A DNA stretch of 53,961 bases from Acidobacteriaceae bacterium (GTDB lineage: Bacteria > Acidobacteriota > Terriglobia > Terriglobales > Acidobacteriaceae): contig JANXZS010000061.1 in NCBI GenBank assembly GCA_025355385.1, forward strand, positions 1-53,961, in the 5' to 3' direction. Shown in pieces: positions 7,101-53,961 of the stretch (its first letter is position 1; the number at the start of each line of letters is the position of its first letter). The notes beneath the pieces are model-generated. The model ran no database searches. It was not told the DNA's origin and saw only the letters and a program-made list of their open reading frames with translations. A program made the position numbers and the translations under genes.

Positions 7101-8864
7101 GCCTACCCGGATTGGTTTGGTTTCAGATCCGGAGAGAAAGACGCCGTACAAACCCCGATCAGGTATCGTTCCGCCATTCAGAATAGCCAGGCTCTTAGAC
7201 CCTTCGCGCGGCGTAATGACATTGCGATTGCGATCCCACGTAATGCGGGGCCGCAACTCGGCAAATTCATCGGAAGGGTATCGGCCCGCCAGCAGATCCA
7301 GTACGCCTTCAAATGCCGAACGGCTTATAGACGCATAGGGGGCTGCGCTGCGAACGATTTGGTATAACTCGTCAAAGCTGATCTCCGCGTCAACCGGAGG
7401 CTCGCCTTTCCGCTTCGTCGCGAGAGTACGTACCGGCGGTTGCGCCGCAATCGCAACAACCTGCTGCGCCAGCACATCCAGTGGATTACGCAGAAAGCGC
7501 GTGGACTCTACCAGCCCCTCATGCATCGCGCGCGTAACTGCCGCACAAGCTACGAGGTCAGCACGGTATTTGGGGAAGATGATGCCTTCGCTGGCTACGC
7601 CGACATGGTGCCCAGCCCGGCCGATGCGTTGCATGCCGCTCGCGACCGAGGGCGGCGCTTCAATCTGCACCACGAGATCGACCGCGCCCATATCGATGCC
7701 CAGTTCCAGCGACGATGTAGCCACCAGCGCACGAATCTGGCCGGCCTTCAACAACTCCTCGATCTCCGAACGCTGCGACGCAGCCAGCGAGCCGTGATGA
7801 GCCCGCGCCAGCGTCTCGCCGGCAAGCTCATTCAACGCTCCCGCAAGGCGCTCAGCGATACGGCGGCTATTGACGAAGATGATCGTGGAAGTGCGCGCGC
7901 GAACAATTTCCAGCAGGCGAGGATGAATCGCACTCCAGATAGAGGTGCGCTTGGGACCTTGAGAGGCGGCCCCGCTCGGCAGTTCTTCCACCTGGCCCAG
8001 ACGCGCCATGTCCTCCACCGGAACTTCGATTCGCAGGTCCAGCTTCTTGGGCTCATCGGCATGCAGGATGGTTACGGGTCGATATGAGGGAAGAGACGGC
8101 GATTCAGCCTCGACGCTCATCTCCGAAGCGGTGTCTGTGAGGTCACTCACCTCCGCAATCTCTCGGTTGCCGGGCTCCGCACCCGCCAGAAAGTGGGCCA
8201 CTTCTTCGAGCGGTCGTTGGGTTGCCGAGAGGCCGATGCGTTGCAGCCTCTTGCCGCAGATCGCCTGCAGGCGTTCGAGCGAAAGTGCCAGATGAGCCCC
8301 TCGCTTGGTCGGAACCAGTGCGTGAATTTCGTCTAGGATCACGGTATCCACGCTGCGCAGGCTTGCCGAGGCGTCAGAGGTCAGGAGCAGATACAGCGAC
8401 TCCGGAGTGGTAATGAGTATCTCTGCCGGATGCCTGCGAAAGCGGTTGCGCTCCTTCTGTGGAGTGTCGCCCGTGCGCACACTGATCTCGGGCGTATGAA
8501 AGGTCACTCCGGCACGGCGAGCGATGTTGGCGATGCCCGCTAGCGGCGACCGCAGGTTGCGCTCTACATCCACGGCCAGGGCTTTGAGCGGACTGATATA
8601 AATCACGCGACAGCCTTCCGTGGGGGGCTCGATCGCGTGAAGCATCAATCGGTCAAGGCACCAGAGAAATGCAGTGAGAGTCTTACCCGTTCCGGTGGGC
8701 GCCAGAATTAGAGTACTTTCGCCCCGCGCAATCGCTGGCCAGCCCAGTCGCTGAGGCGCGGTCGGGCGCTCGAACACGGCGCGGAACCACTCTGCCGTAA
8801 CCGGATGAAAGAGATCGAGAGGGTCTGGTTCCGCAGCCTGCTTTGGGGGTACTCGCCTGATCAT
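4134..8864 (-). CDS. lhr: Large Lhr-type ATP-dependent DNA helicase
   Basis: Superfamily 2 3'-to-5' helicase of the Lhr family, linked to DNA repair, 1576 residues (E. coli Lhr is 1538). Motifs from this start: Walker A A55-P-T-G-T-G-K61-T, S-P-L-K-A-L-A, DEIH at 178-181, S213-A-T, and motif VI Q-R-I-G-R-A-G-H-H. The helicase core is followed by winged-helix and Lhr-specific domains and a long C-terminal extension ending near position 4134. The frame stays open upstream to 9215, but that part lies over cdd on the other strand and has no helicase homology. I therefore chose the ATG at 8864, which gives M-I-R-R-V-P-P. The gene is divergent from cdd and coupled to nei. Confidence 0.93.
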   Translation of the reverse strand: MIRRVPPKQAAEPDPLDLFHPVTAEWFRAVFERPTAPQRLGWPAIARGESTLILAPTGTGKTLTAFLWCLDRLMLHAIEPPTEGCRVIYISPLKALAVDVERNLRSPLAGIANIARRAGVTFHTPEISVRTGDTPQKERNRFRRHPAEILITTPESLYLLLTSDASASLRSVDTVILDEIHALVPTKRGAHLALSLERLQAICGKRLQRIGLSATQRPLEEVAHFLAGAEPGNREIAEVSDLTDTASEMSVEAESPSLPSYRPVTILHADEPKKLDLRIEVPVEDMARLGQVEELPSGAASQGPKRTSIWSAIHPRLLEIVRARTSTIIFVNSRRIAERLAGALNELAGETLARAHHGSLAASQRSEIEELLKAGQIRALVATSSLELGIDMGAVDLVVQIEAPPSVASGMQRIGRAGHHVGVASEGIIFPKYRADLVACAAVTRAMHEGLVESTRFLRNPLDVLAQQVVAIAAQPPVRTLATKRKGEPPVDAEISFDELYQIVRSAAPYASISRSAFEGVLDLLAGRYPSDEFAELRPRITWDRNRNVITPREGSKSLAILNGGTIPDRGLYGVFLSGSETKPIRVGELDEEMVFESRTGDTFILGASTWRINEITHDRVLVSPAPGEPGKMPFWHGDSAGRPLEFGRRIGELVRELRAMPRNAALSRLTREHDLDPAAAENLMRFLADQEIATTAVPDDRTIVIERCRDELGDWRICILTPFGSRIHAPWAMAVTGKIRAAGGPDVEALWGDDGLVLRFPDSDIAPDTEQFLLDPAEATDLVLRQLGSTALFAAKFRESAARALLLPRRRAQGRAPLWQQRKRAYDLLAVASRYPSFPMLLETYRECMRDVFDMPAFLETLRSISARNIRVHVADSRTPSPFASSLLFSYVANYIYDGDAPLAERRAQALSIDQDQLRELLGDADLRELLDADAIAEVEEQLQSLTETMRARSADGMHDLLLRLGDLTRNELARRCVSDELLKHLDRLQRARRLLEVKIAGEKRWIAVEDGARYRDALGVPLPPGVPTALLAPVGAPVVELVRRYARTHGPFTLAEVSARFGLDAPQVEHALRVLIVDGRIVEGGFRPGGVHREWCDAEVLRSIRRKSLARLRKEVEPVEQQMLARLFTHWQGVLQPRRGMDALLDTIENLQGAPLPASLIETTILPSRLVNYSAADLDTLIAAGEVVWCGFDALGEHDGRVSLYLADKLRSLIPPRSSSDVSNSSPLSARELAILEELRRGGAAFFSQLHDAVGGGYPGETLDALWSLVWRSMVTNDTFHALRAYVAKPVASRPAKRQHNLPSYRSRRTTPPSAQGRWAILPLPEINAATSSALQTEWSHAIALQLLNRYGVLTRESVAAENLPGGFSAVYDVLKALEESGRIRRGYFVAGLGATQFALPAAVDLLRSLRNSVQPERPEMIVMAATDPANPYGSVLRWPAAGPLNESDEQSSRSLTRSVGASVLLRNGDLVAYMRRNNPNLQIFVPAEEPERTNAARDLTHALAKTAQEEMRRHDADRRGGMLVTTINGQPAHLHWMSKLLLDAGFQAAPLGFNLRRLLIPSHAELAVAPEVQ

Positions 8865-8987
8865 GAACTGTCCATGAGCATATCTTGCTCTCGCTCGTAA
8901 GATGCAATCCACTTTTGATGCGCCGCAAACAGCGGGCGCAACCGCGTGCTTGCGCCACCGGAGGGCAAACGTTAGCCTCAGTGCACT

Positions 8988-9422
8988 ATGAAAACTGAGG
9001 ATCTCCCGCTGCAATCGGAACAGGTTGCGAAGCTGATTGACGCGGCGACATCTGCTGCCGCCAACGCCTATGCGCCCTATTCGGGCTTTCGCGTCGGAGC
9101 CGCCCTCCTGTTGATGGATGGCACGATCGTTACCGGCTCCAATGTGGAGAATGCGTCTTATGGACTGACGCTTTGCGCTGAACGGTCCGCGCTGGTTAGG
9201 GCAGTCAGCGAACATGGCCTACAAATGCGCATCCGCGCAATCGCCCTGGCAAACCTGAATACTGCTTCTTCCTCCCCGTGCGGCGCCTGCCTCCAGGTGC
9301 TGGCGGAGTTTATTGCACCCGGTGCCTGGATAGTTTTCCCCTATGCCGGAAGGCTCGAATCTAGACGATTTACCGAGCTATTTCCCTTCCCGTTCGATCT
9401 GAGGGAGAGCATGACCTCTTGA
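8988..9422 (+). CDS. cdd: Cytidine deaminase
   Basis: Cytoplasmic zinc enzyme (144 residues) that converts cytidine and deoxycytidine to uridine and deoxyuridine. The motif C63-A-E65-R carries a zinc ligand and the catalytic glutamate. P-C98-G-A-C101-x-Q carries the other two zinc cysteines. The substrate motif Y-A-P-Y-S-G-F-x-V-G-A-A (about 28-39) and the N-V-E-N-A-S-Y motif are intact. Length fits the homotetrameric class. It opens a same-strand run cdd-pdp-nupC-punA-udk, a pyrimidine and purine salvage set. No strong Shine-Dalgarno sequence is seen before the ATG. The divergent lhr start lies 123 bases upstream. Confidence 0.95.
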   Translation: MKTEDLPLQSEQVAKLIDAATSAAANAYAPYSGFRVGAALLLMDGTIVTGSNVENASYGLTLCAERSALVRAVSEHGLQMRIRAIALANLNTASSSPCGACLQVLAEFIAPGAWIVFPYAGRLESRRFTELFPFPFDLRESMTS

Positions 9423-9488
9423 GTCGAATTCAGAACCTGACGCGATCGTTTCGCCTGAGATAGTTCTTGGCACACGAATGGAATATGT

Positions 9489-10835
9489 ATGCACGTAGTT
9501 GATCTAATTCGAAAGAAGCGCGACGGGCTAGAACTTACCGCCGATGAAATAGAGTTCCTGGTACTCGGAGCGGCCGATGAAAGCCTGCCGCTGGAGCAGT
9601 TATCGGCATGGCTGATGGCTGTATGGCTACGCGGTCTGTCTCTCGAGGAGCTCAAGGCGATGACGCAGGCAATGCGCTTCTCCGGCGATGTCTTCAGTAC
9701 TTCGACCCTCGGCAAGCGCGTCGTCGATAAGCACTCCACAGGCGGAGTAGGCGACAAAACCTCTTTCCTGGTCGCTCCCATCGCGGCGGCGGCGGGCCTG
9801 GCCGTCCCAATGATCAGCGGACGTGCGCTCGGCCATACTGGTGGCACCCTGGATAAGATCGAATCGATTCCGAGCTATCAGACTCAACTGTCGCTGGCGG
9901 AATTCCGTAGCATCATTGATCGTACAGGAGTAAGCATCATTGGCCAGACCCGGAACCTGGTGCCGGCGGACCGTGTTCTTTACGCGTTGCGCGATCGCAC
10001 CGCGACGGTCGAGAGTCCCGACCTGATCTGCGCTTCCATCATGAGCAAGAAGCTCGCGGCAGGACTGAACGCCTTGGTGCTCGATGTTAAGACTGGTTCG
10101 GGAGCGTTCATCCAGCGGGAGGAAGCTGGGCTTCACCTGGCCTGCCTGATGGTTCAGACCGGCGAGGCGGCCGGCACGCGCACGGTTGCATTGCTCAGCG
10201 GAATGGAAGAGCCCCTTGGCCGCGCGGCGGGTAACTGGATCGAGGTGGCCGAAGCAATCGAGTTGCTTCATGGAAAGCGCAACCCGCTGACCGAAGATCT
10301 GCGCGAGCTGTCTCTAACGCTTGCCGGATGGATGATCTACCTCGGTAACAAGGCGAAGTCCGCCGAGGGTGGACGCATCCTCGCCGAACAGTTAGTGAAA
10401 AGCGGAGCTGCATTCGATGTGTTTCGCGCCATGGTAAAAGCCCACGGCGGAGATCTTGAGTGCATCGATAATCCGTCGACGTTCCACAGACCCGGCGCAT
10501 CGCGGAAATTCGTCGCGTCACGCGCAGGTGTAATTTCGGGTATGGACTGCGCCCAGGTGGGATGGGCAGTGCAGCGCCTTGGCGCCGGGCGCGAGCGCGA
10601 GAGCGACTCTGTCGATCCCCATGCCGGCCTGTTCTTTCATGCGAAGTGTGGAAGTCCGATGCACGCGGGGCAGGCGATATGCACGATGTTTGCCGCCAGC
10701 GAGGATAAGCTGGACGAGCCCGAACGACTTTTACGCGCCGCAATTCGCATCGACGAAGCAGAACACAAAGCCCAGCCCCTGGTTCGTAGGATAATTACGA
10801 TCGAGAATGCCGCACAGTTTCTGAAACATGGGTAG
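9489..10835 (+). CDS. pdp: Pyrimidine-nucleoside (thymidine) phosphorylase
   Basis: Splits uridine, thymidine and deoxyuridine with phosphate to give the free base and (deoxy)ribose 1-phosphate. The 448-residue protein shows the family signature K81-H-S-T-G-G-V-G-D-K-T-S92 in the phosphate site, then S-G-R-A-L-G-H-T-G-G-T-L-D-K and the S-I-M-S-K-K-L-A-A-G block. The N-terminal V-D-L-I-R-K-K-R-D-G is typical of this class. Wording around the signature is closer to the Bacillus Pdp group than to E. coli DeoA, so substrate preference is left open. It lies 66 bases after cdd and would act on the deaminase product. Confidence 0.94.
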   Translation: MHVVDLIRKKRDGLELTADEIEFLVLGAADESLPLEQLSAWLMAVWLRGLSLEELKAMTQAMRFSGDVFSTSTLGKRVVDKHSTGGVGDKTSFLVAPIAAAAGLAVPMISGRALGHTGGTLDKIESIPSYQTQLSLAEFRSIIDRTGVSIIGQTRNLVPADRVLYALRDRTATVESPDLICASIMSKKLAAGLNALVLDVKTGSGAFIQREEAGLHLACLMVQTGEAAGTRTVALLSGMEEPLGRAAGNWIEVAEAIELLHGKRNPLTEDLRELSLTLAGWMIYLGNKAKSAEGGRILAEQLVKSGAAFDVFRAMVKAHGGDLECIDNPSTFHRPGASRKFVASRAGVISGMDCAQVGWAVQRLGAGRERESDSVDPHAGLFFHAKCGSPMHAGQAICTMFAASEDKLDEPERLLRAAIRIDEAEHKAQPLVRRIITIENAAQFLKHG

Positions 10836-10911
10836 AGCAATTTCAAGCCAAGATTCGGTGGAATGAGAGCCCCTCGACTCGTTCGGAGACGTGGGTGGAG
10901 AGGAGAACGAG

Positions 10912-12150
10912 TTGGGACGATTTACGGGCATCCTGGGATTGCTGACCATGTTGCTGCTGGCTTGGGTATTCTCCACAAATCGGCGTGCCATCCGCTGGCG
11001 CACCGTGGCCTGGGGTCTCGGTCTTCAGATCCTGTTCGCCATCCTGGTATTGCGTTTTGCGGCGGGCCAAAGGTTGCTGGCAAAGGCTGGTACTGCGGTC
11101 AACCATCTACTGGCATACGCATTTGCCGGCTCGGAGATGGTCTTTGGTGAGCTGGGGCGACAGCACTCGAACTTCGGATTGATCTTTGCGTTTCAAGTGC
11201 TGCCAACGATTATCTTCATCTCGGCATTGTTCGCTGTCCTTTACCACATCGGCGTAATGCAGATCGTGATTCGATTCTTCGCGTGGCTGATGCAGGCGAC
11301 GATGAAGGTGAGTGGGGCCGAGAGTTTGAATGTGGCTGCCAGTGTCTTCATGGGACAGACAGAAGCTCCATTGACTATTCGGCCTTTTCTTCCGGGTGCG
11401 ACAAGCTCAGAGTTGATGACCATCATGACCAGCGGAATGGCGCACGTCTCCGGTGGCATCATGGCTGCCTACATTTTGTATGGAATCGAAGCACAACACC
11501 TGCTGGCGGCCGTTATCATGACCGCCCCCGGCACCATCGTCATCGCAAAAATGCTGGTACCAGAAACGGAAGTTTCGGCAACCGCAGGCAGGGTGGTTAT
11601 GCCACAAAGCGCCGAGCATAAGGATGAAAATTTGCTTGGATCCATTGCCCGCGCGACCATCGACGGTGGACAACTTGCATTCAATGTCGCCATTATGTTG
11701 ATCGCCTTTCTCGCGCTGGTGGCGCTGGTGAATGGCCTGCTCGGCGGCATACACAACTGGCTCGGCTGGCACCGCATCCCCTTTCCTTCCTCGCTGAATG
11801 AAATTCTCGGATTTCTGTTCGCGCCGATTGCCTGGCTCATCGGCGTTCCCTGGCACAGCGCAAGACTGGTCGGAAATCTGCTAGGCACGCGTATGGTGAT
11901 GAACGAACTCGTGGCTTATTCCATGCTCGGGGCTCAAAAAGCAACTCTCGACTTCCGCTCTTTTACCATTGCCACCTTCGCGCTGTGCGGCTTTGCGAAT
12001 TTCAGCTCGATCGGCATGCAGATTGGCGGCATCGGCGCACTCGCACCCACCCGGTGCAACGAACTCGCCAAGCTGGGCCTGCGGGCTATGCTGGCTGGCA
12101 CCATGGCTAACCTGATGTCCGCCTCGATCGTCGGCGTGCTAATGCGGTAA
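10912..12150 (+). CDS. nupC: NupC-type concentrative nucleoside transporter
   Basis: Inner-membrane nucleoside importer driven by an ion gradient (CNT family), 412 residues. The N terminus G-I-L-G-L-L-T-M followed by S-T-N-R-R-A-I-R-W matches the first helix of NupC proteins. Later blocks include M-G-Q-T-E-A-P-L, G-M-A-H-V-S-G-G-I-M and C-G-F-A-N-F-S-S-I-G, which carry the family's nucleoside-binding residues. A GTG at 10891 is in frame, but the strong ribosome site GGAGAGGAG ends six bases before the TTG at 10912. The TTG also gives the family's usual N terminus, so I chose it. It supplies substrate to pdp, punA and udk. Confidence 0.93.
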   Translation: MGRFTGILGLLTMLLLAWVFSTNRRAIRWRTVAWGLGLQILFAILVLRFAAGQRLLAKAGTAVNHLLAYAFAGSEMVFGELGRQHSNFGLIFAFQVLPTIIFISALFAVLYHIGVMQIVIRFFAWLMQATMKVSGAESLNVAASVFMGQTEAPLTIRPFLPGATSSELMTIMTSGMAHVSGGIMAAYILYGIEAQHLLAAVIMTAPGTIVIAKMLVPETEVSATAGRVVMPQSAEHKDENLLGSIARATIDGGQLAFNVAIMLIAFLALVALVNGLLGGIHNWLGWHRIPFPSSLNEILGFLFAPIAWLIGVPWHSARLVGNLLGTRMVMNELVAYSMLGAQKATLDFRSFTIATFALCGFANFSSIGMQIGGIGALAPTRCNELAKLGLRAMLAGTMANLMSASIVGVLMR

Positions 12151-12177
12151 GGGACAAGGACCTAGGAAAGGGGAGTT

Positions 12178-13050
12178 GTGAAAAAGGGATTATTTGAACG
12201 CGCCACCGAGGCCTCAGAGTTCGTCCGCGAGCGAAGCAGTACCCATCCGAAAATCGCGATAGTACTTGGCTCCGGCCTAGGCGCGGTTGCGGAACAGGTC
12301 GAAGACTCGCTGGCAATTCCCTACGCTGAGATTCCGCACTTTCCGCATTCCACCGTAGAAGGCCACAGCGGGAGGCTGGTCATGGGCACGTTGCGCGGAG
12401 TAGCCGTCGTGGTGATGCAGGGCAGAGTTCATGGGTATGAGGGCTACAGTCCCGAACATGTCGCGTTTCCCCTGCGCGTATTGGGACGTCTTGGTATCGA
12501 CATAGTAATAGTTACAAATGCAGCCGGTGCTATCCGCCTCGATCTCGAGCAGGGGCAACTCGTGCTCATATCCGATCACATCAACTTCACTGGAAGCAAT
12601 CCGCTCACCGGTCCCAATGATGACCGCTTTGGTCAACGCTTCTTCGACATGACCGATGCATATTCGGGGCGGTTGCGAACGCTGACCAAGAGCGCAGCGA
12701 AGATTGCTGGTTCCGACATGACGGAGGGCGTGTACATCTGCGTCCCGGGGCCAAGCTTTGAGACTCCCGCCGAGATCCGAGCGTTCCGTGCAATGGGAGC
12801 AGACCTCGTGGGAATGTCTACGGTACACGAGGTGATGGCGGCGCGACACATGGGTATTGAGGTGCTGGGCATTTCCTGCGTAACCAACATGGCCGCCGGC
12901 ATCCTCAAGCAGGAGATCAATCACAGAGAAGTAATGGAGACGGGGCTGCGCATACAACAGGGTCTCGGCAACCTGATCGCATCGCTTGTGCCCCAGATTC
13001 GGGTGCAGGATCGGGTGGAGGGTCGAGTCCATGACGAGGCATCTCACTGA
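12178..13050 (+). CDS. punA: Purine nucleoside phosphorylase (trimeric type)
   Basis: Cytoplasmic enzyme (290 residues) that splits inosine or guanosine with phosphate into base and ribose 1-phosphate. The phosphate-loop motif V-L-G-S32-G-L-G, then G-H63-S-G, Q-G-R-V-H-G-Y-E-G-Y (81-90), P-S-F-E195-T-P-A-E-I-R, G-M213-S-T and N237-M-A-A-G are all in place. These fit the trimeric PNP class. The GTG start follows GGAAAGGGGAG closely. The stop lies 27 bases after nupC's end plus the gene length, with udk directly downstream, which supports one salvage operon. Confidence 0.94.
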   Translation: MKKGLFERATEASEFVRERSSTHPKIAIVLGSGLGAVAEQVEDSLAIPYAEIPHFPHSTVEGHSGRLVMGTLRGVAVVVMQGRVHGYEGYSPEHVAFPLRVLGRLGIDIVIVTNAAGAIRLDLEQGQLVLISDHINFTGSNPLTGPNDDRFGQRFFDMTDAYSGRLRTLTKSAAKIAGSDMTEGVYICVPGPSFETPAEIRAFRAMGADLVGMSTVHEVMAARHMGIEVLGISCVTNMAAGILKQEINHREVMETGLRIQQGLGNLIASLVPQIRVQDRVEGRVHDEASH

Positions 13051-13094
13051 GACCATACCTGCCAGATTCCAGCCAGCAGACCACGCGGCCCGTA

Positions 13095-13718
13095 GTGATC
13101 GGCATTGCGGGTTGTTCCGGCTCAGGCAAAACTACGCTTGCCCTTGAACTTGTGCGGGAATTTCGCGGAACCCACTTCCCGCTCGACCATTACTACCGCG
13201 ATCTCAGACACCTGGCTTTTGATCAGCGCTGTAAAAAGGACTTCGATCATCCCAACACACTCGAATCCCAGCTGATAGCCGCTCACGTTGCCGAGTTAGC
13301 CGCTGGGCGCGGCATCGACCGCCCCGTTTATGACTTCGCTACGCACACGCGAATCCATCACCAGACTGAACACATCTTGCCCGGCCCCATGGTCCTGGTA
13401 GATGGCATCTTCGCTCTGCACTACGACGCACTTCGGCCTCTCTAAAATTTGCGTGTCTATGTGGACGCACCCGACGACCTTTGCTACCAGCGCAGACTGG
13501 CGCGCGACGTGCGCGAACGTGGTCGCACACCCCAATCCGTGGCGGCACAATATGCCAGCACGGTTCGTCCCATGGCGGAAATGTTTGTGCGGCCTTCCGC
13601 AAAGTATGCCGACATCATCGTGGATGGCAGCAAGTCTTTGGACTGGTCGGTCGAGCAGGTCATCTCACAGCTTGTGCAACAAAACTTGATGTCTCGCATC
13701 AACCCGACTCTCGGATAG
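13095..13718 (+). pseudogene. udk: Uridine kinase gene interrupted by an in-frame TAA
   Basis: Uridine/cytidine kinase would phosphorylate salvaged nucleosides to UMP and CMP. The frame from GTG 13095 has the P-loop G-C-S-G-S-G-K12-T, the D-H-Y-Y-R-D-L substrate motif, and V-L-V-D-G-I-F-A-L-H. It then meets TAA at 13443-13445, after L-R-P-L. Reading continues in the same frame with N-L-R-V-Y-V-D-A-P-D-D and the lid Q-R-R-L-A-R-D, ending normally at 13718. No base is gained or lost, so one substitution (for example TTA to TAA) explains it. Both halves are otherwise well conserved. It may be a recent pseudogene, a readthrough site or a sequence error. An in-frame CTG overlapping the punA stop could start translation earlier. 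Confidence 0.88.
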
Positions 13719-13814
13719 CCCTCTTTCCATCCCAGCAAACGCAACCTTTGCTTTTCCCGCTATGCACCGGCCGGCTTCAGTAGAGTCAAGGAGTGGATTG
13801 CGAAGGAGATGGCG

Positions 13815-14555
13815 ATGGACGAGCAGATATACGTGGTGCTGGGTGCTTACGGTGGCGTGGGTATGGAACTGGCGCGTCGGCTGGCCGCCAAAGGCGCAAA
13901 GCTCATGCTGGTGGGCCGCGACGATTCCCGGCTTCACGCCCTGGCTTTGGAACTGGGGGCAGCCTTCGCGCACGCCGACGCTACCGTCAGCCAACAGGTC
14001 GAAGCAGCCATTGCAGCGGCAGCCGAAAAGTTCGGCGGCATCTCGGGGATCGCGAATTGTTTTGGATCGCTGCTGCTAAAGCCCGCTCATTTGACCACAG
14101 ACGAAGAGCTGGAGCAGACCTTGGCCATCAATCTCAAGAGCGCGTTCGCGACGGTGCGCGCCGCTGCCCGGAATATCAAAAAGGATGGCAGCATCGTGCT
14201 CGTATCCAGCGCAGCAGCGCGATTGGGGATGGCGAATCACGAAGCAATTGCTGCAGCCAAGGCTGGAATCCAGGGGCTTGCGCTTGCGGCAGCGGCTACC
14301 TATGCGAATCGCAATCTCCGTTTCAACTGTGTCGCGCCCGGCTTGACGCGCACGCCGCTAACCGAAAAAATCACGGGCAACGAAGTCGTCGCCAAAGGTT
14401 CGCTTGCCATGCATGCGCTGGGCCGCTTCGGCGAACCGGCCGATGTGGCCTCAGCGATTGAATGGCTGCTCGACCCACGACAGCACTGGATCACAGGGCA
14501 GATAATAGGAGTTGATGGCGGCCTGTCCACGGTGCGAGCCCGTAACGCCGGCTAG
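13815..14555 (+). CDS. Short-chain dehydrogenase/reductase family protein, atypical active site
   Basis: Rossmann-fold SDR of about 246 residues. It has the nucleotide motif G-A-Y-G-G-V-G, the N-L-K motif, V-S-S-A-A-A, and the family's C-terminal P-G-L-T-R-T-P and D-G-G blocks. Counting from the upstream ATG at 13809, the catalytic Ser (134) and Lys (151) are kept. The position four before Lys151, normally Tyr, is Ile147, in the stretch N-H-E-A-I-A-A-A-K. The usual Y-x-x-x-K motif is therefore missing, although His144 and Glu145 are near. The ribosome site AAGGAG abuts the ATG at 13809, so the ATG at 13815 is the likelier start. Substrate is unknown. Confidence 0.85.
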   Translation: MDEQIYVVLGAYGGVGMELARRLAAKGAKLMLVGRDDSRLHALALELGAAFAHADATVSQQVEAAIAAAAEKFGGISGIANCFGSLLLKPAHLTTDEELEQTLAINLKSAFATVRAAARNIKKDGSIVLVSSAAARLGMANHEAIAAAKAGIQGLALAAAATYANRNLRFNCVAPGLTRTPLTEKITGNEVVAKGSLAMHALGRFGEPADVASAIEWLLDPRQHWITGQIIGVDGGLSTVRARNAG

Positions 14556-16091: not shown

Positions 16092-17153
16092 ATGCTAACG
16101 AAAAAAGAACTCCTCACCAATCCTGTCCAGCACATCGACATCAAACAGTACAACGTGGTTGCCTTGGTCGATGCCATGCAATCCATGGCCTACAGCTCCC
16201 GCGACCTCGCCCGTGCGGCCTCCATTTACGAACGCATGCTGCGCGATCACGATTGCGGCGTCATCCTGTGCCTGGCAGGATCGCTGGTAAGCGCTGGCCT
16301 GAAGCAGATCTTTGTCGATCTGGTGCGCAACAACATGGTGGACGCTATCGTCTCCACCGGCGCAAACATTGTCGATCAGGATTTTTTCGAGGCGCTTGGT
16401 TTCCGGCATTACATTGCCGATGAGCTCTACAAGCAAGGCACCGAGGATGGGACACTGCGCAAATTGATGATCGATCGCATCTACGACACGTTGATCGACG
16501 AGGAAGAGCTCCGTCTTTGTGACGAGACGACGGAGAAGATCGCCAACTCCCTCGATCCGCGACCGTACAGCTCCCGCGAATTCATCCGAGCCATGGGTGC
16601 CTACCTTGTGGCGGAGGGCAAGACACCGGAAAGAGGTGGCGTCGACTCTATCGTCCTCGCTGCCTACCAGAAGGATGTGCCAATCTTCTGCCCGGCCTTC
16701 AGTGACTGTTCCGCGGGGTTCGGGCTAGTGGCACACCAGCATGCGCGTCAGAACAAGCCGAGGGTTTCGATCGACTCAGCCAAGGATTTTTACGAGATCA
16801 CGCAGCTGAAAATCGCCAACCCCACCACCGGTCTGCTGATGATCGGCGGCGGCGTACCCAAGAACTTTGCCCAGGACATCGTGGTGGCGGCTGAAATTCT
16901 GGGCAAGGACGCACCCATGCACAAATACGCGATCCAGATCACGGTTGCCGATGTCCGGGACGGAGCGCTCAGTTCCAGCACGTTGAAAGAAGCCAGTTCC
17001 TGGGGCAAGGTCGACACCACCTTCGAGCAGATGGTCTATAGCGAGGCGACTCTCGCCCTGCCCCTGATTGCGGGATACGTCTATCACAAGAATGCGCAAG
17101 CGGGCCGTCAGGAGCGCCACTGGGCCAACCTCTTGGAGCCTGTTACCGCGTAG
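16092..17153 (+). CDS. Deoxyhypusine synthase family protein
   Basis: NAD-dependent aminobutyl-transferase family protein of 353 residues. The motif S-S-W-G-K306-V matches the active-site lysine region of eukaryotic deoxyhypusine synthase. Other blocks include I-V-S-T-G-A-N, C-P-A-F-S-D, G-G-G-V-P-K-N-F and I-Q-I-T. In archaea and eukaryotes the enzyme modifies eIF5A with spermidine. Bacteria lack eIF5A, so the bacterial members are thought to act in polyamine chemistry such as homospermidine formation. The true reaction here is unknown. ATG 16092 follows A/T-rich TTACAATTG with no clear ribosome site, so leaderless translation is possible. It stands alone, with no other polyamine gene in the window. 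Confidence 0.85.
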   Translation: MLTKKELLTNPVQHIDIKQYNVVALVDAMQSMAYSSRDLARAASIYERMLRDHDCGVILCLAGSLVSAGLKQIFVDLVRNNMVDAIVSTGANIVDQDFFEALGFRHYIADELYKQGTEDGTLRKLMIDRIYDTLIDEEELRLCDETTEKIANSLDPRPYSSREFIRAMGAYLVAEGKTPERGGVDSIVLAAYQKDVPIFCPAFSDCSAGFGLVAHQHARQNKPRVSIDSAKDFYEITQLKIANPTTGLLMIGGGVPKNFAQDIVVAAEILGKDAPMHKYAIQITVADVRDGALSSSTLKEASSWGKVDTTFEQMVYSEATLALPLIAGYVYHKNAQAGRQERHWANLLEPVTA

Positions 17154-46597: not shown

Positions 46598-46672
46598 CGA
46601 ACAAGGCGCTTAACCGCCAGCCACCGAGTCCGGGCTCTGTCGTTTCTGGAGGGCACCGGAACCAAAGCGCTC

Positions 46673-46882
46673 TCAAATCTCCGGATAAAAATCAAAGAAC
46701 GCATCGATGCTCTGCCGCAGCTGGGCCTCGATCTCTTCTCGCGAACCCTCCAGAATGTGCATCGTCACCCGGGCCTCGCGCCCGTTCTTCAACTTCACCG
46801 CAGCCTCGCCCACCTCGGTGATTTCCTCCGCCGGAAGCAGCCGCATGCCGTATACCAATGTCAGATTCGCCATGCCGCTCAT
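46673..46882 (-). CDS. Hypothetical small protein
   Basis: I do not recognise this protein of about 69 residues. The text M-A-N-L-T-L-V-Y-G-M-R-L-L-P followed by V-K-L-K-N-G-R-E-A-R-V-T-M-H-I-L-E-G-S suggests a small beta-sheet with a helix at the end (I-E-A-Q-L-R-Q-S-I-D-A-F-F-D). The frame is open to 46939. The ATGs at 46882 and 46873 are the likelier starts. It sits upstream of rplM on the same strand, but the rplM promoter lies between them. It is divergent from trxB. Confidence 0.5.
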   Translation of the reverse strand: MSGMANLTLVYGMRLLPAEEITEVGEAAVKLKNGREARVTMHILEGSREEIEAQLRQSIDAFFDFYPEI

Positions 46883-47081
46883 CTTAATTCGGAGCAGCCG
46901 CGTAAGGAAGTTGTCACCACCAGGCAATCGTAGAAGCAATCGCCGCAGCCATACCGATCGCAGAGGATCCGCATCGTTTCCCGCTAGCCGGCATCTCTTA
47001 AGTATTTGACTGTCTGTAGATTACCTAGAAATGGCGCGATATCGCCGAGCGTCACACGCCAAGTACAATCAAAGTCACTCT

Positions 47082-48017
47082 ATGTCTCAGACCATTCGCG
47101 ATACTGTCATCCTCGGTTCAGGTTGCGCCGGACTTACGGCCGCCATCTATGCCGCCCGCGCTAACCTGAAACCGCTCGTTCTGGAGGGCCATGAGCCCGG
47201 CGGCCAGCTATCCCTTACCACCCTGGTAGAGAATTTTCCCGGGTGGGCCGAGGGAATTCAGGGTCCCCAACTAATAGAAAATATGAAGCAGCAGGCGGCT
47301 CGCTTTGGCGCCGAATTTCAAATGGCCCATCTCGTATCTGTAGACCTATCCCGCCGTCCCTTTGTGCTCAACCTGGGGCAGGAGGAGGTGAGAACTCACA
47401 CCCTCACCATCGCCAGCGGAGCCTCAGCCCGATGGCTGGGTCTTCCGTCGGAACAGGCACTGATCGGCCACGGGGTAAGCTCCTGCGCCACCTGCGATGG
47501 TTTCTTTTTCAAAGGTAAGGAGATCGCAGTTATCGGCGGCGGAGACTCGGCCATGGAAGAGGCGCTCTTCCTGACGCGCTTTGCCTCGAAGGTCACCGTC
47601 ATCCATCGCCGCGAGCACTTCCGCGCCTCCAAGATCATGCTGGAGCGCACCATGGCCCACCCCACGGTGCAGTTCCTCACCAACACGGGGGTGGAAGAAG
47701 TCCTCGGCGTGGAAGAGAAAGAAGTCCGCGGATTGCGTCTCCTTAACACGCTCACCGGGCAGGAAACCATGCTTCCAGTGAGCGGAGTATTTCTCGCCAT
47801 CGGCCATACACCCAATGCCTCCATGTTCGCCGGGCAGATCGATCTCGACCAGGACGGCTACGTCCTCACCCACGACAACGTCTTCACCCGTGCCCCTGGA
47901 GTCTTCGCCTGCGGGGATGTCCAGGACAGGCGCTATCGTCAAGCAATCACCGCGGCAGGATCCGGCTGCATGGCCGCACTCGAAGTCGAGAAATACCTCG
48001 ATGAGCACAACCGCTAA
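47082..48017 (+). CDS. trxB: Thioredoxin reductase family flavoprotein
   Basis: NADPH-dependent FAD disulfide reductase (311 residues) that would reduce thioredoxin. The FAD motif is L-G-S-G-C-A-G-L-T-A-A. E-P-G-G-Q-L, the redox pair C135-A-T-C138-D-G, the NADPH motif G-G-G-D-S-A-M-E-E-A, H-R-R-E-H-F-R-A-S-K, and the C-terminal F-A-C-G-D-V-Q-D motif follow. All catalytic residues are present. The frame is open from 47031, but the ATG at 47082 gives the proper N terminus. TTGACT at about 47005 might be a -35 box, without a clear -10 box. No thioredoxin gene is adjacent. Confidence 0.93.
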   Translation: MSQTIRDTVILGSGCAGLTAAIYAARANLKPLVLEGHEPGGQLSLTTLVENFPGWAEGIQGPQLIENMKQQAARFGAEFQMAHLVSVDLSRRPFVLNLGQEEVRTHTLTIASGASARWLGLPSEQALIGHGVSSCATCDGFFFKGKEIAVIGGGDSAMEEALFLTRFASKVTVIHRREHFRASKIMLERTMAHPTVQFLTNTGVEEVLGVEEKEVRGLRLLNTLTGQETMLPVSGVFLAIGHTPNASMFAGQIDLDQDGYVLTHDNVFTRAPGVFACGDVQDRRYRQAITAAGSGCMAALEVEKYLDEHNR

Positions 48018-48174
48018 GCAGATACCAACAAGTGTGCAGGGTGGGGACTATGGCTCGCGGGCCAAGGCCATCCCCGAGACACCTGTAAAACTGAAATGAG
48101 AAGAAAGTTTTTGCAATTGGCGAACTAAGGGCGCAGATACGGCTTCTCTGAGTTAGGAGCCGTAGGTTAGATCG

Positions 48175-48447
48175 TTACAGAAGGTGGTGCCGCTTGTGCA
48201 CGGTGCTAGCCAATTGCACATCAGTTGCAAAAAGATGCGCAACTTCCCCATCGCGCCATGCCCTGCGCTCGACCGTGTGGAGTACCGCCGTTACCGCTGC
48301 AGCGCGGGGGGTATGCGTGGCATCCCACACACCGTAAGCGTAGGCCTGGCGCTGGTTTCGGACCATAAGCGCGATCACCAACCCGACCACGATGGCGACC
48401 CACACCCACTCCGGAGCACTCTCTATCACGAAGACCAATTTATCCAT
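48175..48447 (-). CDS. Hypothetical small membrane protein
   Basis: Unrecognised protein of 90 residues with one membrane helix (about 10-31: W-V-W-V-A-I-V-V-G-L-V-I-A-L-M-V). A soluble tail follows, with R-N-Q-R-Q-A-Y-A-Y-G-V-W-D-A-T. The ATG at 48447 stands about eight bases after AAGGA, which supports translation. It is convergent with trxB, across 157 bases in which I see no gene. Confidence 0.5.
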   Translation of the reverse strand: MDKLVFVIESAPEWVWVAIVVGLVIALMVRNQRQAYAYGVWDATHTPRAAAVTAVLHTVERRAWRDGEVAHLFATDVQLASTVHKRHHLL

Positions 48448-48937
48448 GGTGCAATTCCTTTCACACTCAGCCGACTGCCAGACTTGTTGCAGGCGCGGCA
48501 CGGAACGTCAGCCCATTTCGGCACTAGTCGACGCCCTATCCCGCCGCCCCGCACACAAATAAGACGACGTGGCGAACGAGAAGTTACCGTTTAGTGGCAA
48601 TTTTTGGGCCACATCCGGTCGGCCATCCGTTTATGCTGAAGACTGGATTCAGATTACGTGAAATGCAAGGGAATCACGCCAAATGCATGGGACGGGAATC
48701 GATTGTGCCAGTGCCCCTGTCTGAGGAAAGTCTTAATTTTGCGAGGCCCGGAATACTAATCATGGCAACCGCCCTGAAAGTCGCCACCCGACCGCCTGAA
48801 CCCTATTCTTATCCCCGGGTTGGCTCGTACATGTCCGGCCATTGCATGGTTGGTGGTTGGCGGAGCCATCTGCGTCATTGGATTGAATATAGCGGGTGCA
48901 ACCTATGTCCCCAACAGCCCCCCGGAATTGGCCCGCC
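48448..48937 (+). other. Gap before yggS with a possible broken small membrane gene
   Basis: No intact gene is convincing in these 490 bases. From ATG 48762 the frame reads M-A-T-A-L-K-V-A-T-R-P-P-E-P-Y and on to about 48836. The next frame, from about 48838, then reads a clear membrane helix (A-I-A-W-L-V-V-G-G-A-I-C-V-I-G-L) and ends at about 48988, inside yggS. Joining the two needs a one-base change. It may be a frameshifted gene or chance. Confidence 0.25.
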
Positions 48938-49693
48938 GTGAGCCCCGACAAGTCCTTGACCTTCTCGCAACGGCTGACGCAGATTGAGCAGCAGATCATG
49001 GCCGCTTGCCGTCGCGCCGGTAGATCACGCGATCAGGTCCTGCTCATGGCCGTCTCCAAAACCCATTCCGCCGAAGCGGTGCAGGAAGCTATCGCTGCGG
49101 GAGTCGCGCATTTCGGCGAAAACCGCGTGCAGGAGTTCGCTCAGAAGTCGCTGGCCCTGGCCCAATTAGAAGTGGCGAGAGGCGAAGCAAATCTCGCGTC
49201 GAGCCCCCCCCTCTTCCACCTCATCGGCCACCTGCAGTCGAACAAGGCCGCCAAGGCGGTCGAAATCTTCGATGCGATCGATACGCTCGACTCCCTCCGC
49301 CTGGCCCAGCGCTTGAGCGAAGTCGCCCAAACGCACAGCCGCAAGCTGCCGGTATTACTTGAAATCAAACTAAGTTCCGAGGAAAGCAAGACCGGCCTCC
49401 ATCCCCAATCGCCCGAACTGATCGAACTGCTCGAGCGAATCCCCTCTCTCAACGGGCTCGAGCTGCGCGGCTTGATGACCGTGCCTCCGTACAACCAGGA
49501 TCCCGAGGCGGCGCGTCCGTATTTTCGCCAGCTTCGCGAACTCCGCGAACAGTTGACACTGGCGCATCCCTCCCTCTGCTTCGAAGAGCTGTCCATGGGC
49601 ATGTCCGGCGATTTCACGGTAGCCATCGAGGAAGGCGCGACCGTGGTGCGCATCGGCACGGCCCTGTTCGGGGAGCGCGGATTGCCCCGGTGA
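48938..49693 (+). CDS. yggS: YggS/PLPBP family pyridoxal-phosphate-binding protein
   Basis: Pyridoxal 5'-phosphate homeostasis protein of about 251 residues with an alanine-racemase-like barrel. It binds PLP but has no known catalysis. Lys41 in M-A-V-S-K41-T should hold PLP. H-F-G-E-N-R-V-Q-E, H-L-I-G-H-L-Q-S-N-K, R-G-L-M-T-V-P-P and L-S-M-G-M-S-G-D-F-T-V-A-I-E follow, then R-I-G-T-A-L-F-G. GTG 48938 gives the family's short N terminus. In-frame starts at 48896 and 48905 are also possible. Its stop overlaps the start of yggU as GTGA, so the two are translationally coupled. Confidence 0.93.
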   Translation: MSPDKSLTFSQRLTQIEQQIMAACRRAGRSRDQVLLMAVSKTHSAEAVQEAIAAGVAHFGENRVQEFAQKSLALAQLEVARGEANLASSPPLFHLIGHLQSNKAAKAVEIFDAIDTLDSLRLAQRLSEVAQTHSRKLPVLLEIKLSSEESKTGLHPQSPELIELLERIPSLNGLELRGLMTVPPYNQDPEAARPYFRQLRELREQLTLAHPSLCFEELSMGMSGDFTVAIEEGATVVRIGTALFGERGLPR

Positions 49694-50004
49694 TTCCCGT
49701 CCGGGACTCGCCTCAGGGGGCAACTTTCGCTGTCAAGGTTCACCCCCGTGCCAGGAAAACTGCCATCACCGGCGTCTTCGGCGAGGGCGCGAACGCCGCG
49801 CTCAAGATCGCTCTCTCAGCCCCTCCCGTTGAAGGACGCGCTAACGAGGCCTTGATCGAATTTTGCGCGGATTTGTGCCAGGTTCCACGCTCCGCCGTCT
49901 CTGTCATCTCCGGCTCGCAGTCCCGAAACAAAGTGATTCGCGTCGCAGGCCGCACCGCAGAACAGATCAACCGGACCCTTGCCGGGCATCTAGAGCAGAA
50001 GTAG
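49690..50004 (+). CDS. yggU: DUF167 (YggU) family protein
   Basis: Small conserved protein of 104 residues with no known activity. Family blocks are V-K-V-H-P-R-A-R-K-T-A-I, L-K-I-A-L-S-A-P-P-V-E-G-R-A-N-E-A-L and I-S-G-S-Q-S-R-N-K. The start GTG shares bases with the yggS stop. The yggS-yggU order is common in bacteria, often near cell-division or pilus genes, which are not present here. A long stem-loop follows 30 bases after its stop. Confidence 0.9.
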   Translation: MIPVRDSPQGATFAVKVHPRARKTAITGVFGEGANAALKIALSAPPVEGRANEALIEFCADLCQVPRSAVSVISGSQSRNKVIRVAGRTAEQINRTLAGHLEQK

Positions 50005-50033
50005 AGATAATGTGATGTATCCAGCGTCAGCGA

Positions 50034-50064
50034 TGCAGGCATTTTCTTGATGAAAATGCCTGCA
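50034..50064. terminator. Long perfect stem-loop after yggU
   Basis: TGCAGGCATTTTC pairs with GAAAATGCCTGCA, 13 perfect base pairs, around the loop TTGAT. It is the strongest hairpin in the window. It lacks a T-run after the stem, so ending of the yggS-yggU transcript is likely but not certain. It could also protect the 3' end. Confidence 0.55.
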
Positions 50065-50172
50065 GAGATCTGTGGCTCCGTTTACAGTAACCCTGCTTCT
50101 GCCCTAGTCTTTTCAGGGCACACTAGAAATCGAATTGCGTAGTCCTACACGCAGGTAAGCGGAGGTGTTGGG

Positions 50173-50835
50173 ATGGCCAGTCGGACGACGCTGTTGCTAG
50201 GGGCGAGCGGACTCATTGGAAGCCTATGCCTGCAGGAACTGCTCCGGGCCGAAGCCTACCGGAATGTGGTGGCACTGGTGCGCAGTCCCCTGGGTATGCA
50301 ACACGCGAAGCTGGCCTCTCATGTCGTCGACTTTGAACGCCGCGAAACCTTCGCCGAATTCACGAGAGTTGACGACGTCTTCTCCTGCATCGGCACCACG
50401 CGGAGTCAGGCCGCCTCCGATCAGGCCTATCGCCGGATCGACTTCGATATCCCTAACGATGTAGCACAGCTTTCGTTTGAATGCGGAGCGGCGCAGTTTC
50501 TTATCGTCTCTTCAGTCGGAGCCAATCCACGCTCCAGGGTTTTCTATACAAGATTGAAGGGCGAGATCGAACAGGCACTCGGGCGCATGCCATTTCAATC
50601 CGTGCATATCTTCCGCCCTTCTTTTCTGATGGGAGCCCGGCCCCAATCCCGCCCCACAGAGATTGCACTGGCAAAGGCCGCGCCGTTTTTCTCGTGGATG
50701 CTTGCCGGTCCCCTGCGGAAGAATAAGCCTATCCAGGCTGCGGTCGTTGCCCGCGCCATGGTGCGTGCCGCGCTAGCTGGCGCCAGCGGCGTACAGATTT
50801 ACGAGTTCGACCGGATTCAGGCGCTAGGCACTTGA
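50173..50835 (+). CDS. TIP30/HTATIP2-like NAD(P)-binding oxidoreductase
   Basis: Atypical short-chain dehydrogenase of 220 residues. The Rossmann motif is L-L-G-A-S-G-L-I-G-S (8-17). The active-site set is Ser113-Ser114 and Y125-T-R-L-K129. S-C-I-G-T-T and I-F-R-P-S-F-L-M-G-A-R match the TIP30 group. Substrate and role are unknown. GGAGGTG stands six to seven bases before the ATG, a strong ribosome site. Genes on both sides are on the same strand but 85-170 bases away, so it is probably transcribed alone. Confidence 0.85.
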   Translation: MASRTTLLLGASGLIGSLCLQELLRAEAYRNVVALVRSPLGMQHAKLASHVVDFERRETFAEFTRVDDVFSCIGTTRSQAASDQAYRRIDFDIPNDVAQLSFECGAAQFLIVSSVGANPRSRVFYTRLKGEIEQALGRMPFQSVHIFRPSFLMGARPQSRPTEIALAKAAPFFSWMLAGPLRKNKPIQAAVVARAMVRAALAGASGVQIYEFDRIQALGT

Positions 50836-50920
50836 TTTCGACGAGGGGCTCGCTCGGTATCCTTTCCGGTACACTTTTCCCTAAGTCAATCGAGAAGCTC
50901 AAGACCACGAAGGAACGCGC

Positions 50921-52354
50921 ATGAACCTGTACGCCGCCGTCCTCGGCGCGATCGTTCTCACCTTGCTCACCGTATCGCTGGTGCAGTTGCGCGGAGTCAA
51001 GACCAAGGCCGATTACCTCGTCGCCGGGCGCTCCCTGCCAGCCTTCGTGCTGGTCTTCACGCTGCTCTCTTCCTGGATCGGTTCCGGCTCCCTGCTGGGT
51101 GGCGCAGAGAACGCCTACCATCATGGCTTTGCAGCCCTATGGCAGGCGGGCGGAGGATGGGCAGGCCTGCTCTTGATTTACTTCATCGCACCCCGCGCCA
51201 GGAAATTTGCCCAGTTCACCATCCCCGATCTACTTGAAGCCCGCTACAACCAGGCCGCCCGTGTATTGGGAGTCATCGCCGTCCTCTTCGCCTACACCGC
51301 CATCACCAGTTATCAGCTCACCGGCGGTGGAGATATCCTCCATCTCGTCTTCCCCACCCTCATCTCCGCCGACCTGGGCAAGTACATCATCGCTGCCTTC
51401 GTGATCCTCTTTACCGCAATTGCCGGAATGGCCTCGGTCGCCTACATGGACGTCGTCATCGGGATGCTCGCAACCATCGCCATGTGTCTGGCGCTGCCGG
51501 TACTGCTCCATTCGGCTGGTGGTTGGAGCCATGTCACCGAGACGCTGCCCGCTACCCACTTCCAGTTGCTGGGAGACTTCACCCTCCTGCAGGCGCTCGA
51601 ACTCTTTTTACCAACCTGCCTGCTGATGCTCGGCAACCAGTCCATGTATCAGAAGTTCTTTTCTGCGAAGTCGGAAAAGGACGCGCGCAACGCAGTCGTG
51701 GGCTGGATCGTCGGCACCATCGTGCTCGAGACGGTCATCGTGGCGCTCGCAGTCGTTGGCTCGGTGCGCTTCCCGACGGGAGAAGTTGCGCAGCACCCCC
51801 GCGAGATCATCGCCTATACCGCACTCCACGGACTGCCCGCATTCCTGGGTGCCTTGCTGATGGGATCGGTCTTTGCCAAGATCATCTCCACCGCGAACAA
51901 CTACCTGTTCTCCCCGGCAACGAATCTGGTCAACGATGTCTTCGTCCGCTACCTGTCACCGGATGCTTCCAACAAACGCATTCTGATCGTCTCCCGCCTG
52001 ATGGTGGCGCTCCTTGGCGTTTGGGCGCTCTATCAGGCTCTGCATACAGACTCGGTCCTGAAGAAGACTCTCTATGCCTACACCATCTATTCCGCCGCAC
52101 TCACGCCGGTGATTCTGGCCGCCTTCTACTCGCGCCGTGCCAATGCCGCAGGAGCAGTCAGTGCGATTGGCGCCGGCACATTTGTAACCTTCTTCTGGGA
52201 TGTGCCCTTCGTCCAGCACCACCTGCCCGCAGTCCTCGCCCAGCGCGACGCCATCTTTCCCGCACTGCTTGCATCACTGCTATGCCTGGTAATCGTCAGT
52301 CTTGCCACCAAGCCCCCCAATCCGGAGCAGGTAGCCCTCTTCTTCCCGGAGTAG
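50921..52354 (+). CDS. Sodium:solute symporter family (SSS) transporter
   Basis: Inner-membrane symporter of 477 residues with about 13 helices, LeuT fold. Family features include the early K-A-D-Y-L-V-A-G-R-S-L-P motif after helix 1, the S-S-W-I-G-S-G-S-L-L-G-G unwound helix, and the G-N-Q-S-M-Y-Q-K-F-F-S-A-K-S block. S-T-A-N-N-Y-L-F-S-P-A-T-N follows, in the sodium-site helix. The substrate cannot be told from the sequence. Sugars, amino acids, carboxylates and pantothenate are all transported by relatives. AAGGA precedes the ATG by seven bases. No catabolic gene is linked. Confidence 0.9.
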   Translation: MNLYAAVLGAIVLTLLTVSLVQLRGVKTKADYLVAGRSLPAFVLVFTLLSSWIGSGSLLGGAENAYHHGFAALWQAGGGWAGLLLIYFIAPRARKFAQFTIPDLLEARYNQAARVLGVIAVLFAYTAITSYQLTGGGDILHLVFPTLISADLGKYIIAAFVILFTAIAGMASVAYMDVVIGMLATIAMCLALPVLLHSAGGWSHVTETLPATHFQLLGDFTLLQALELFLPTCLLMLGNQSMYQKFFSAKSEKDARNAVVGWIVGTIVLETVIVALAVVGSVRFPTGEVAQHPREIIAYTALHGLPAFLGALLMGSVFAKIISTANNYLFSPATNLVNDVFVRYLSPDASNKRILIVSRLMVALLGVWALYQALHTDSVLKKTLYAYTIYSAALTPVILAAFYSRRANAAGAVSAIGAGTFVTFFWDVPFVQHHLPAVLAQRDAIFPALLASLLCLVIVSLATKPPNPEQVALFFPE

Positions 52355-52491
52355 AGTCATCGAGCATCAACCGATTGTCCATCCGGTGGGATCATAAAGA
52401 GTGCTCGGGATCAATCGGCCCCAGTACAAATGGAGCACCTATTGAAAATTCACCCCTGGCTTAGTACTTTTAGCTCGAGCATTCCGCGCGA

Positions 52492-52534
52492 GCAGGGGCG
52501 GGCTTCGGAATCTTGAACGTAACCGCGCCCCTGC
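52492..52534. other. Stem-loop downstream of the symporter gene
   Basis: GCAGGGGCG (52492-52500) pairs with CGCCCCTGC (52526-52534) over 9 bp with a 25-base loop. It lies in a 237-base gap (52355-52591) in which no gene is seen. It might help end the symporter transcript. Confidence 0.3.
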
Positions 52535-52591
52535 GAATCCCCAAGGGATGAAGTTCGTTGATTCCCCAGCCTCGCAAGAAAAGTGAATTCC

Positions 52592-52822
52592 ATGATGCAG
52601 GCGACCGAATTCGAACTTCGGAACCGGTGGTGGTTCTTTGGTGCTATCTTCGGCGCGTCCTTTTTTTTCCTGGCCTTCGATCACACGCCTGTGAGCTTCG
52701 CGGCCTCGCTGAACATCCTTTGGGTCTACGCCGGATTAGCAGTTTCGCCGCTGCTGAGTTGGTTGGCCGGGGTTACGATGCGGAAGCGCGGTCAGGCGCT
52801 GTCGTCGGCATCCAAGCCATAA
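52592..52822 (+). CDS. Small membrane protein, possible remnant of an isoprenylcysteine methyltransferase-like gene
   Basis: Protein of about 76 residues with two predicted membrane helices. The start, F-E-L-R-N-R-W-W-F-F-G-A-I-F-G, resembles the first helix of bacterial isoprenylcysteine carboxylmethyltransferase-like proteins. Those are usually near 200 residues and carry an R-H-P-x-Y-x-G motif, which is absent here. It could be a truncated copy or an unrelated small protein. The frame begins at GTG 52583. ATG 52592 is chosen, but the ribosome site is weak. It precedes ylxP on the same strand. Confidence 0.45.
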   Translation: MMQATEFELRNRWWFFGAIFGASFFFLAFDHTPVSFAASLNILWVYAGLAVSPLLSWLAGVTMRKRGQALSSASKP

Positions 52823-52911
52823 CCAACCAGCCATATGTGGGTGACTAAGCAGAAGAGTAATCTGAATCAGCCACCAGCACAGGCGCCAAAGGCCGCCGCG
52901 CGGCCAGCACA

Positions 52912-53214
52912 ATGACAATGCCCATCGCTACGCTCACTCTCGAACTTCGCATCGAGCACGCGCAGTCACTCAAAGACCGGCGGCAGGTTGTGCGTTCGCT
53001 CAAAGAAAAGTTGAAGGTTGGCTTCAATATCTCCGTCGCCGAGTTGGACGAGGCCGTCACATGGCAGTCTGCTACCCTTGGAATTTGCGCCATCTCGCGT
53101 TCTCACGACTACCTGGCCGGATTGATGCAGCAGGTGGAGAACGCCGCCGTCCGCATCAGCAATGACCTCGGTGCTGAAATCAGCGACTGCTACTGGCAGA
53201 TCGTGGACGAATAG
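52912..53214 (+). CDS. ylxP: DUF503 (YlxP) family protein
   Basis: Small conserved protein of 100 residues with a ferredoxin-like fold and unknown function. It has L-E-L-R-I-E-H-A-Q-S-L-K-D-R-R-Q-V-V-R-S-L-K-E-K-L, the core DUF503 pattern. N-I-S-V-A-E-L-D follows. In many bacteria it lies between infB and rbfA, and rbfA does follow here, which supports a link to ribosome maturation. infB is not directly upstream in this window. Starts at 52912 or 52918 are both possible. Confidence 0.9.
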   Translation: MTMPIATLTLELRIEHAQSLKDRRQVVRSLKEKLKVGFNISVAELDEAVTWQSATLGICAISRSHDYLAGLMQQVENAAVRISNDLGAEISDCYWQIVDE

Positions 53215-53328
53215 GGGTTTGGCCTTCCCGGTTTTGCGGACGCAATCTTCGTGCTGCGGTTAGAAAAGTTCTCCCGAGAATCGTTTCTATCTCTGATATT
53301 CTCAACAGTTTACCTAAGGAAGTTCGGC

Positions 53329-53727
53329 ATGCCAGAACCACGCGCGCGCCAATATCATCGGAACCGCGTTGCTGAATCGCTTCGCGAAGAAGTCAGCGCC
53401 ATCATCGAAGGCGAACTCTCCGACCCCCGGATCAGCTTCTGCTACATCAGTGAAGTGCTGCTCAACCCCGGCGGCAAATCCGCCCGCGTCTATGTCGCTG
53501 TCGATGGCGGCATGAAAGAAGAGACTGAAACCATCGAGGCGCTGATGAACGCACGCGGACACATCCGCCACAGCCTGCTTGAACTCATGGGGGTCCGCCA
53601 TGTGCCTGAGCTTAGCTTCCATATTGACCGCTCTGAAAAAATGAAGAATCGCATCGACCAGCTTCTTGGACGTGAGAAAAAGAAGAAGGCAAAGTCCGGG
53701 CTGGCGAAGGATCCCGCTGCCACTTAA
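53329..53727 (+). CDS. rbfA: Ribosome-binding factor A
   Basis: Cold-adaptation and 30S maturation factor that binds the 16S rRNA 5' region. The 132-residue protein begins Y-H-R-N-R-V-A-E-S-L-R-E-E-V-S-A-I-I, then S-D-P-R-I, A-R-V-Y-V-A-V-D-G, I-R-H-S-L-L-E-L-M-G-V-R-H-V-P-E-L-S-F-H and D-R-S-E-K-M. These are characteristic RbfA blocks. AAGGAAG stands seven bases before ATG 53329, so the longer frame from 53251 is rejected. The tail is Lys-rich. ylxP lies 114 bases upstream. The usual next gene, truB, is not seen before the window ends. Confidence 0.95.
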   Translation: MPEPRARQYHRNRVAESLREEVSAIIEGELSDPRISFCYISEVLLNPGGKSARVYVAVDGGMKEETETIEALMNARGHIRHSLLELMGVRHVPELSFHIDRSEKMKNRIDQLLGREKKKKAKSGLAKDPAAT

Positions 53728-53961
53728 GAACGAAGCAGCCCGGGCGCCACCCCGGCCCCAACCCATGCAACACCACGAGCGAATCCGCAGCCCGCAGGAG
53801 ACGGACCAGCCGGGTATATGCGCTGGCGTTCTCAATTGCCTTCCTGCGGACCGAGGTCGGCCATAGAATCCACTACTTGGCTTGATGTTCCTTCGACTCC
53901 AGTGCGCCCGCAATCTGATAGCCTTAATTATGTGGTTTCTAAAGTGTTGCGAGTCCGGCAA
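53728..53961. other. Terminal 234 bases without a recognised gene
   Basis: No conserved gene is seen after rbfA. A short frame begins at ATG 53930 (M-W-F-L-K-C-C-E-S-G) and runs off the edge, so a gene may start there. A minus-strand open frame covers this end and rbfA but looks like a shadow of rbfA. Confidence 0.4.

Follow-up and report, generated by a model that had tools for sequence, protein, structure and literature searches.

The uridine kinase gene (udk) that closes a run of nucleoside genes in the stretch of DNA analyzed here (53,961 nucleotides from an Acidobacteriaceae bacterium, hereafter the window) is interrupted by a single in-frame TAA, and we contend that this stop is probably a recent loss-of-function nonsense mutation in a dispensable gene. 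The only udk frame in the window, at positions 13095-13718 (+), reads as a full uridine kinase across the stop; its translation reveals no indel, and the only in-frame stop inside it is the TAA at 13443-13445 (+), within the codons CTC TAA AAT TTG. The 5' part (13095..13442, +, 116 codons) contains the P-loop and nucleoside-site motifs, the TAA occupies codon 117, and the 3' part (13446..13718, +, 90 codons and a TAG) contains the strand formed by model residues 119-124, the invariant arginines and the C-terminal helices. The names P-loop, substrate or nucleoside site, and lid are those which we take to apply to these motifs, as it is the conservation of the residues and not their roles that was observed.

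Both parts match adjoining stretches of the same models, far above what is expected by chance, and therefore represent one gene. The 116-amino acid part covers positions 1-125 and the 90-amino acid part positions 130-188 of the 196 in the Pfam PRK model, and the corresponding ranges in the NCBIfam uridine kinase model PRK05480 are 8-123 and 127-203 of 210. Read across the TAA, the gene matches the whole domain of the PF00485 profile (118.6 bits, positions 1-188 of 196) and aligns with the solved structure 3w8r over residues 1-179 (E 1.1e-43). It differs from known uridine kinases (PF00485; PRK05480/TIGR00235; solved structures 3asy and 3w8r) by the internal stop and by having no usual start upstream of the P-loop strand. 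Moreover, all 20 residues that are invariant in 38 other aligned sequences are retained in the two halves, as are 31 of the 32 nearly invariant ones, in agreement with a preliminary description of this locus as a gene cut by one in-frame TAA with both halves conserved.

The alignment consists of the window sequence and 38 other rows, 29 from genome searches and nine from named contigs, with one locus (G044/JAJZBZ010000001.1) counted twice among the 38. A sense codon is found at the stop column in every one of these rows, encoding Tyr in 17, Phe in six, Leu in four, Met in four, Gln in three, and Ala, Glu, Cys and Ser in one each. Judged from this alignment, the TAA is private to the window genome among the genomes seen, and the lesion is thus specific to its lineage (0/38 other rows). 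The same-genus relative G001 (76% identical) carries TAT at this position, and a single third-base substitution turns this Tyr codon into TAA, which bears out the earlier proposal that one substitution accounts for the stop. Given that 54 of the 1863 possible single substitutions of the G001 gene yield a stop, a nonsense change in udk is unremarkable as a mutation. The other udk matches in the searches of 100 genomes showed no internal stops, as the two further in-frame stops encountered, a TGA in G034 (residue 201 of 202) and a TAA in G038 (residue 201 of 201), proved to be natural gene ends. It had also been suggested beforehand that a sense codon in related genomes would make the stop a sequence error; this is too strong, as a recent true mutation fits the comparison equally well.

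Pairwise dN/dS values against G001 are 0.12 for the part preceding the stop and 0.23 for the part following it, both well below 1, and those of seven neighboring genes (cdd, deoA, nupC, punA and three more) range from 0.04 to 0.15. The post-stop value thus exceeds those of all seven neighbors, but this is a weak sign since it takes in the variable C-terminal tail. When L003 and L004 served as outgroups, five amino acid changes were assigned to the window branch and three to that of G001 in each half of the gene. The counts for window and G001 were 7 vs. 5 before and 5 vs. 5 after the stop with L003 alone, and 3 vs. 0 and 1 vs. 2, respectively, with four outgroups, so that no clear acceleration on the window branch emerges from these sequence comparisons. 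With purifying selection visible in the divergence and no clear acceleration, the stop is either recent or an error.

The picture of a gene with one clean lesion, as drawn in the preliminary description, holds for the single stop and the lack of indels but not for the 5' end, where a usual start is missing upstream. Between the preceding stop and the GTG at 13095, which is the sole usual start and the codon with which the P-loop strand region begins, there is no in-frame ATG, GTG or TTG. Of the 23 rows examined, 21 carry a usual start farther upstream, and the two that do not are the window and L014, the latter with an open udk frame. No Shine-Dalgarno-like stretch is seen by eye ahead of GTG 13095, which means little because the start of the intact cdd gene at 8988 is likewise without one. 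The sequence GGTGGAGGG, followed 8 nt on by an ATG at 13031 (together 13014..13033, +), may be the remnant of the original start or may have arisen by chance; this ATG lies 64 nt from GTG 13095 and hence in a different frame from udk, one that is closed at 13145-13147. Visual inspection allows the in-frame stretch ahead of the P-loop to be matched with the N-terminus of the G001 protein, while a five-sequence alignment is poor there. A frameshift at the 5' end can be proposed no more than tentatively as a second lesion, a CTG at 13047 or 13059 may serve as the start, and the apparent weakening of the start may reflect a further step of decay that took place independently. The P-loop strand is 101 nt away in the window (12994-13095), and 62 nt away in G001, from a CAGATT close to the end of the conserved part of punA; the punA tail differs between the two, and the 12994-13095 stretch aligns poorly.

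The genes preceding udk are intact, as had been stated for this nucleoside run, and all four are untruncated with respect to G001. They encode a cytidine deaminase (cdd, 8988..9422, +; TIGR01354, 124 bits against a cut-off of 113.65), a thymidine or pyrimidine-nucleoside phosphorylase (deoA/pdp, 9489..10835, +; PRK05820, 497 bits, cut-off 269, and TIGR02644, 485 bits, cut-off 409), a NupC-like Na+-dependent nucleoside transporter (10891..12150, +, with a start that may be the TTG at 10912; Pfam Nucleos_tra2_C, 243.6 bits, and TIGR00804, 425 bits, slightly below the cut-off of 442) and a purine-nucleoside phosphorylase (punA, 12178..13050, +; PRK08202, 375 bits, cut-off 218). A scan of positions 8800-14100 for promoters and terminators found no more of them than in shuffled sequences. 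Downstream, a short-chain dehydrogenase gene (13809-14555) sits between udk and a PepSY gene in the window, whereas G001 has the PepSY frame (L002, about 2207-2548) immediately after udk, so that the dehydrogenase was gained in the window or lost in G001. Also, a strong deoxyhypusine synthase family match (16092-17153; PF01916, 307.9 bits), here in a bacterium, is 94% identical in G001. Synteny with the 120 kb of G001 compared ends near 46.6 kb, and positions 46600-53961, containing a pyridine-nucleotide oxidoreductase, an Ala_racemase_N-domain protein, a sodium:solute symporter and RbfA, have no nucleotide match there.

A sequencing or assembly error, in which the genome carries an intact udk and a single wrong base call produced the TAA, would account for several of these observations, and we regard it as unlikely but deserving of serious weight. 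The TAA differs by one base from the Tyr codon that G001 and 16 other rows carry, all invariant residues are kept in both halves at a low dN/dS, and a miscalled base would likewise leave a gene in which, apart from the stop and the doubtful start, no decay is clear. In addition, the source assembly is a draft of 4.63 Mb in 321 contigs with an estimated contamination of 2.89%. On the other hand, in a comparison of 31 hand-picked window genes with the syntenic G001 region, udk alone was shortened: its G001 counterpart runs 91 residues past the window stop, and those of the other 30 genes extend no more than 8 residues past the aligned part. That 30 of 31 genes are untruncated points to sound sequence and a lesion confined to udk and argues against frequent base errors here, though a single one could still have occurred, and one miscalled base leaves the missing start unexplained, even if L014 is likewise without one.

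The conservation of both halves with dN/dS below 1 could also be read as the mark of a locus that still yields active enzyme, either through low-level leakage at the TAA or through termination and restart at the TTG at 13449..13451 (+), with the fragments assembling. This TTG, 3 nt past the stop, is the nearest in-frame restart codon, and in the fold model the break falls in a turn that separates structural elements. A survey of bacterial in-frame stops argues that these can persist with dN/dS below 1, as in its readthrough candidates, which the window gene resembles in having such values on both sides, and describes the vast majority as short-lived (Belinky et al., 2021; PMC7918605). The main set of that survey was restricted to stops common to two or more species (Belinky et al., 2021; PMC7918605), a filter the udk stop does not pass, as it occurs in one of the 39 aligned rows and in none of the other 38. 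The RNA following the stop is not unusually structured (z 0.51 over 101 nt starting at the TAA), TAA terminates six of the 31 listed window genes, and no ribosome-binding-like (Shine-Dalgarno-like) stretch is seen by eye ahead of TTG 13449. No tRNA with the anticodon TTA was found by ARAGORN at 47 tRNA places in the draft genome, in a list that is itself incomplete, lacking for example the expected Ile and Asn tRNAs, and Rfam and tRNA scans of the window gave no readthrough signal. The readthrough put forward in the preliminary description is thus disfavored by a singleton stop, the lack of structure after it and the lack of a TAA-reading tRNA at the 47 places, and we consider an active product of this locus improbable. 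It can be speculated, with even less conviction, that the TAA is kept as a throttle, by means of a leaky UAA giving a trickle of product or a tandem two-fragment enzyme, with both halves under purifying selection. Active enzyme from this locus, if made at all, would offer a testable bacterial instance of expression being throttled by a stop codon.

A recent nonsense mutation in udk remains the explanation that we favor. Most simply, the Tyr codon would have become TAA in the lineage or strain of the window, and translation would end after 116 residues. In a fold model of the protein with Tyr at the stop position (mean pLDDT 94.9), residue 117 falls within the turn that leads into strand 119-124, and the invariant arginines R133, R134, R137, R142 and R144, which we take to form the lid, all follow it. 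The 116-residue fragment would thus keep the P-loop and nucleoside-binding motifs and be without both this strand and the arginine-rich lid, for which reason it should be inactive, judging from the fold model and the motif positions. The main fate of imported pyrimidine nucleosides would then be deamination by Cdd and phosphorolysis by DeoA, and UMP would be supplied de novo. The inactivity of the fragment and this metabolic outcome are both what we infer for the stop.

A search for a second udk, as proposed beforehand, was carried out with profiles, and no second udk or other PF00485 gene was found in the draft genome. There is also no uracil phosphoribosyltransferase above the Pfam cut-off in this draft; three matches below the cut-off turned out to be PyrE, PyrR and a phosphoribosyltransferase-domain protein below every NCBIfam cut-off shown. 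With no second udk and no uracil phosphoribosyltransferase above cut-off, loss of the gene would sever uridine from direct phosphorylation. The draft genome carries PyrE, PyrR and an OMP-decarboxylase-family gene, and the frame adjoining pyrR is presumably an aspartate carbamoyltransferase. PyrR is a member of the bifunctional regulator/uracil phosphoribosyltransferase family and would be the only candidate found for the re-use of uracil, weakly so. The notion that loss of udk disconnects the import and release of uridine from its phosphorylation is therefore sustained by the lack of a second udk and of a uracil phosphoribosyltransferase above cut-off, but it is tempered by the presence of PyrR and by NupC-family transporters without udk in 42 of 100 genomes, which makes this state not unusual.

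Full-length udk was found in 34 of the 100 genomes searched, the present one included, and in 31 of the 80 with a completeness of 90% or more and a contamination of 5% or less. A NupC-family transporter is encoded in 74 of the 100, accompanied by udk in 32 and without a full-length udk in 42; within the same family, again with the present genome included, 21 of 60 genomes carry udk and 28 of 60 the transporter only. Absence of udk is ordinary in this group, and as the gene is missing from most of the genomes searched it is probably dispensable. A NupC-family match in a relative (G048:C18:100446-101033) contains two in-frame TGA codons and is perhaps another broken nucleoside-salvage gene. The presence of udk varies among Chlamydiaceae too, according to one report (PMC3091639).

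The window gene resembles bacterial pseudogenes produced by a single substitution in that its stop is lineage-specific, the gene is otherwise conserved and its occurrence among relatives is patchy, and at the level of sequence no difference from such pseudogenes is apparent. As an ordinary case, it would be one further gene loss in a patchy salvage step and would matter little. It would also be a clean example of a genome in which the genes for nucleoside import and phosphorolysis are retained and the direct phosphorylation of uridine is lost, a state of which the 42 of 100 genomes with NupC and no full-length udk represent a coarser form.
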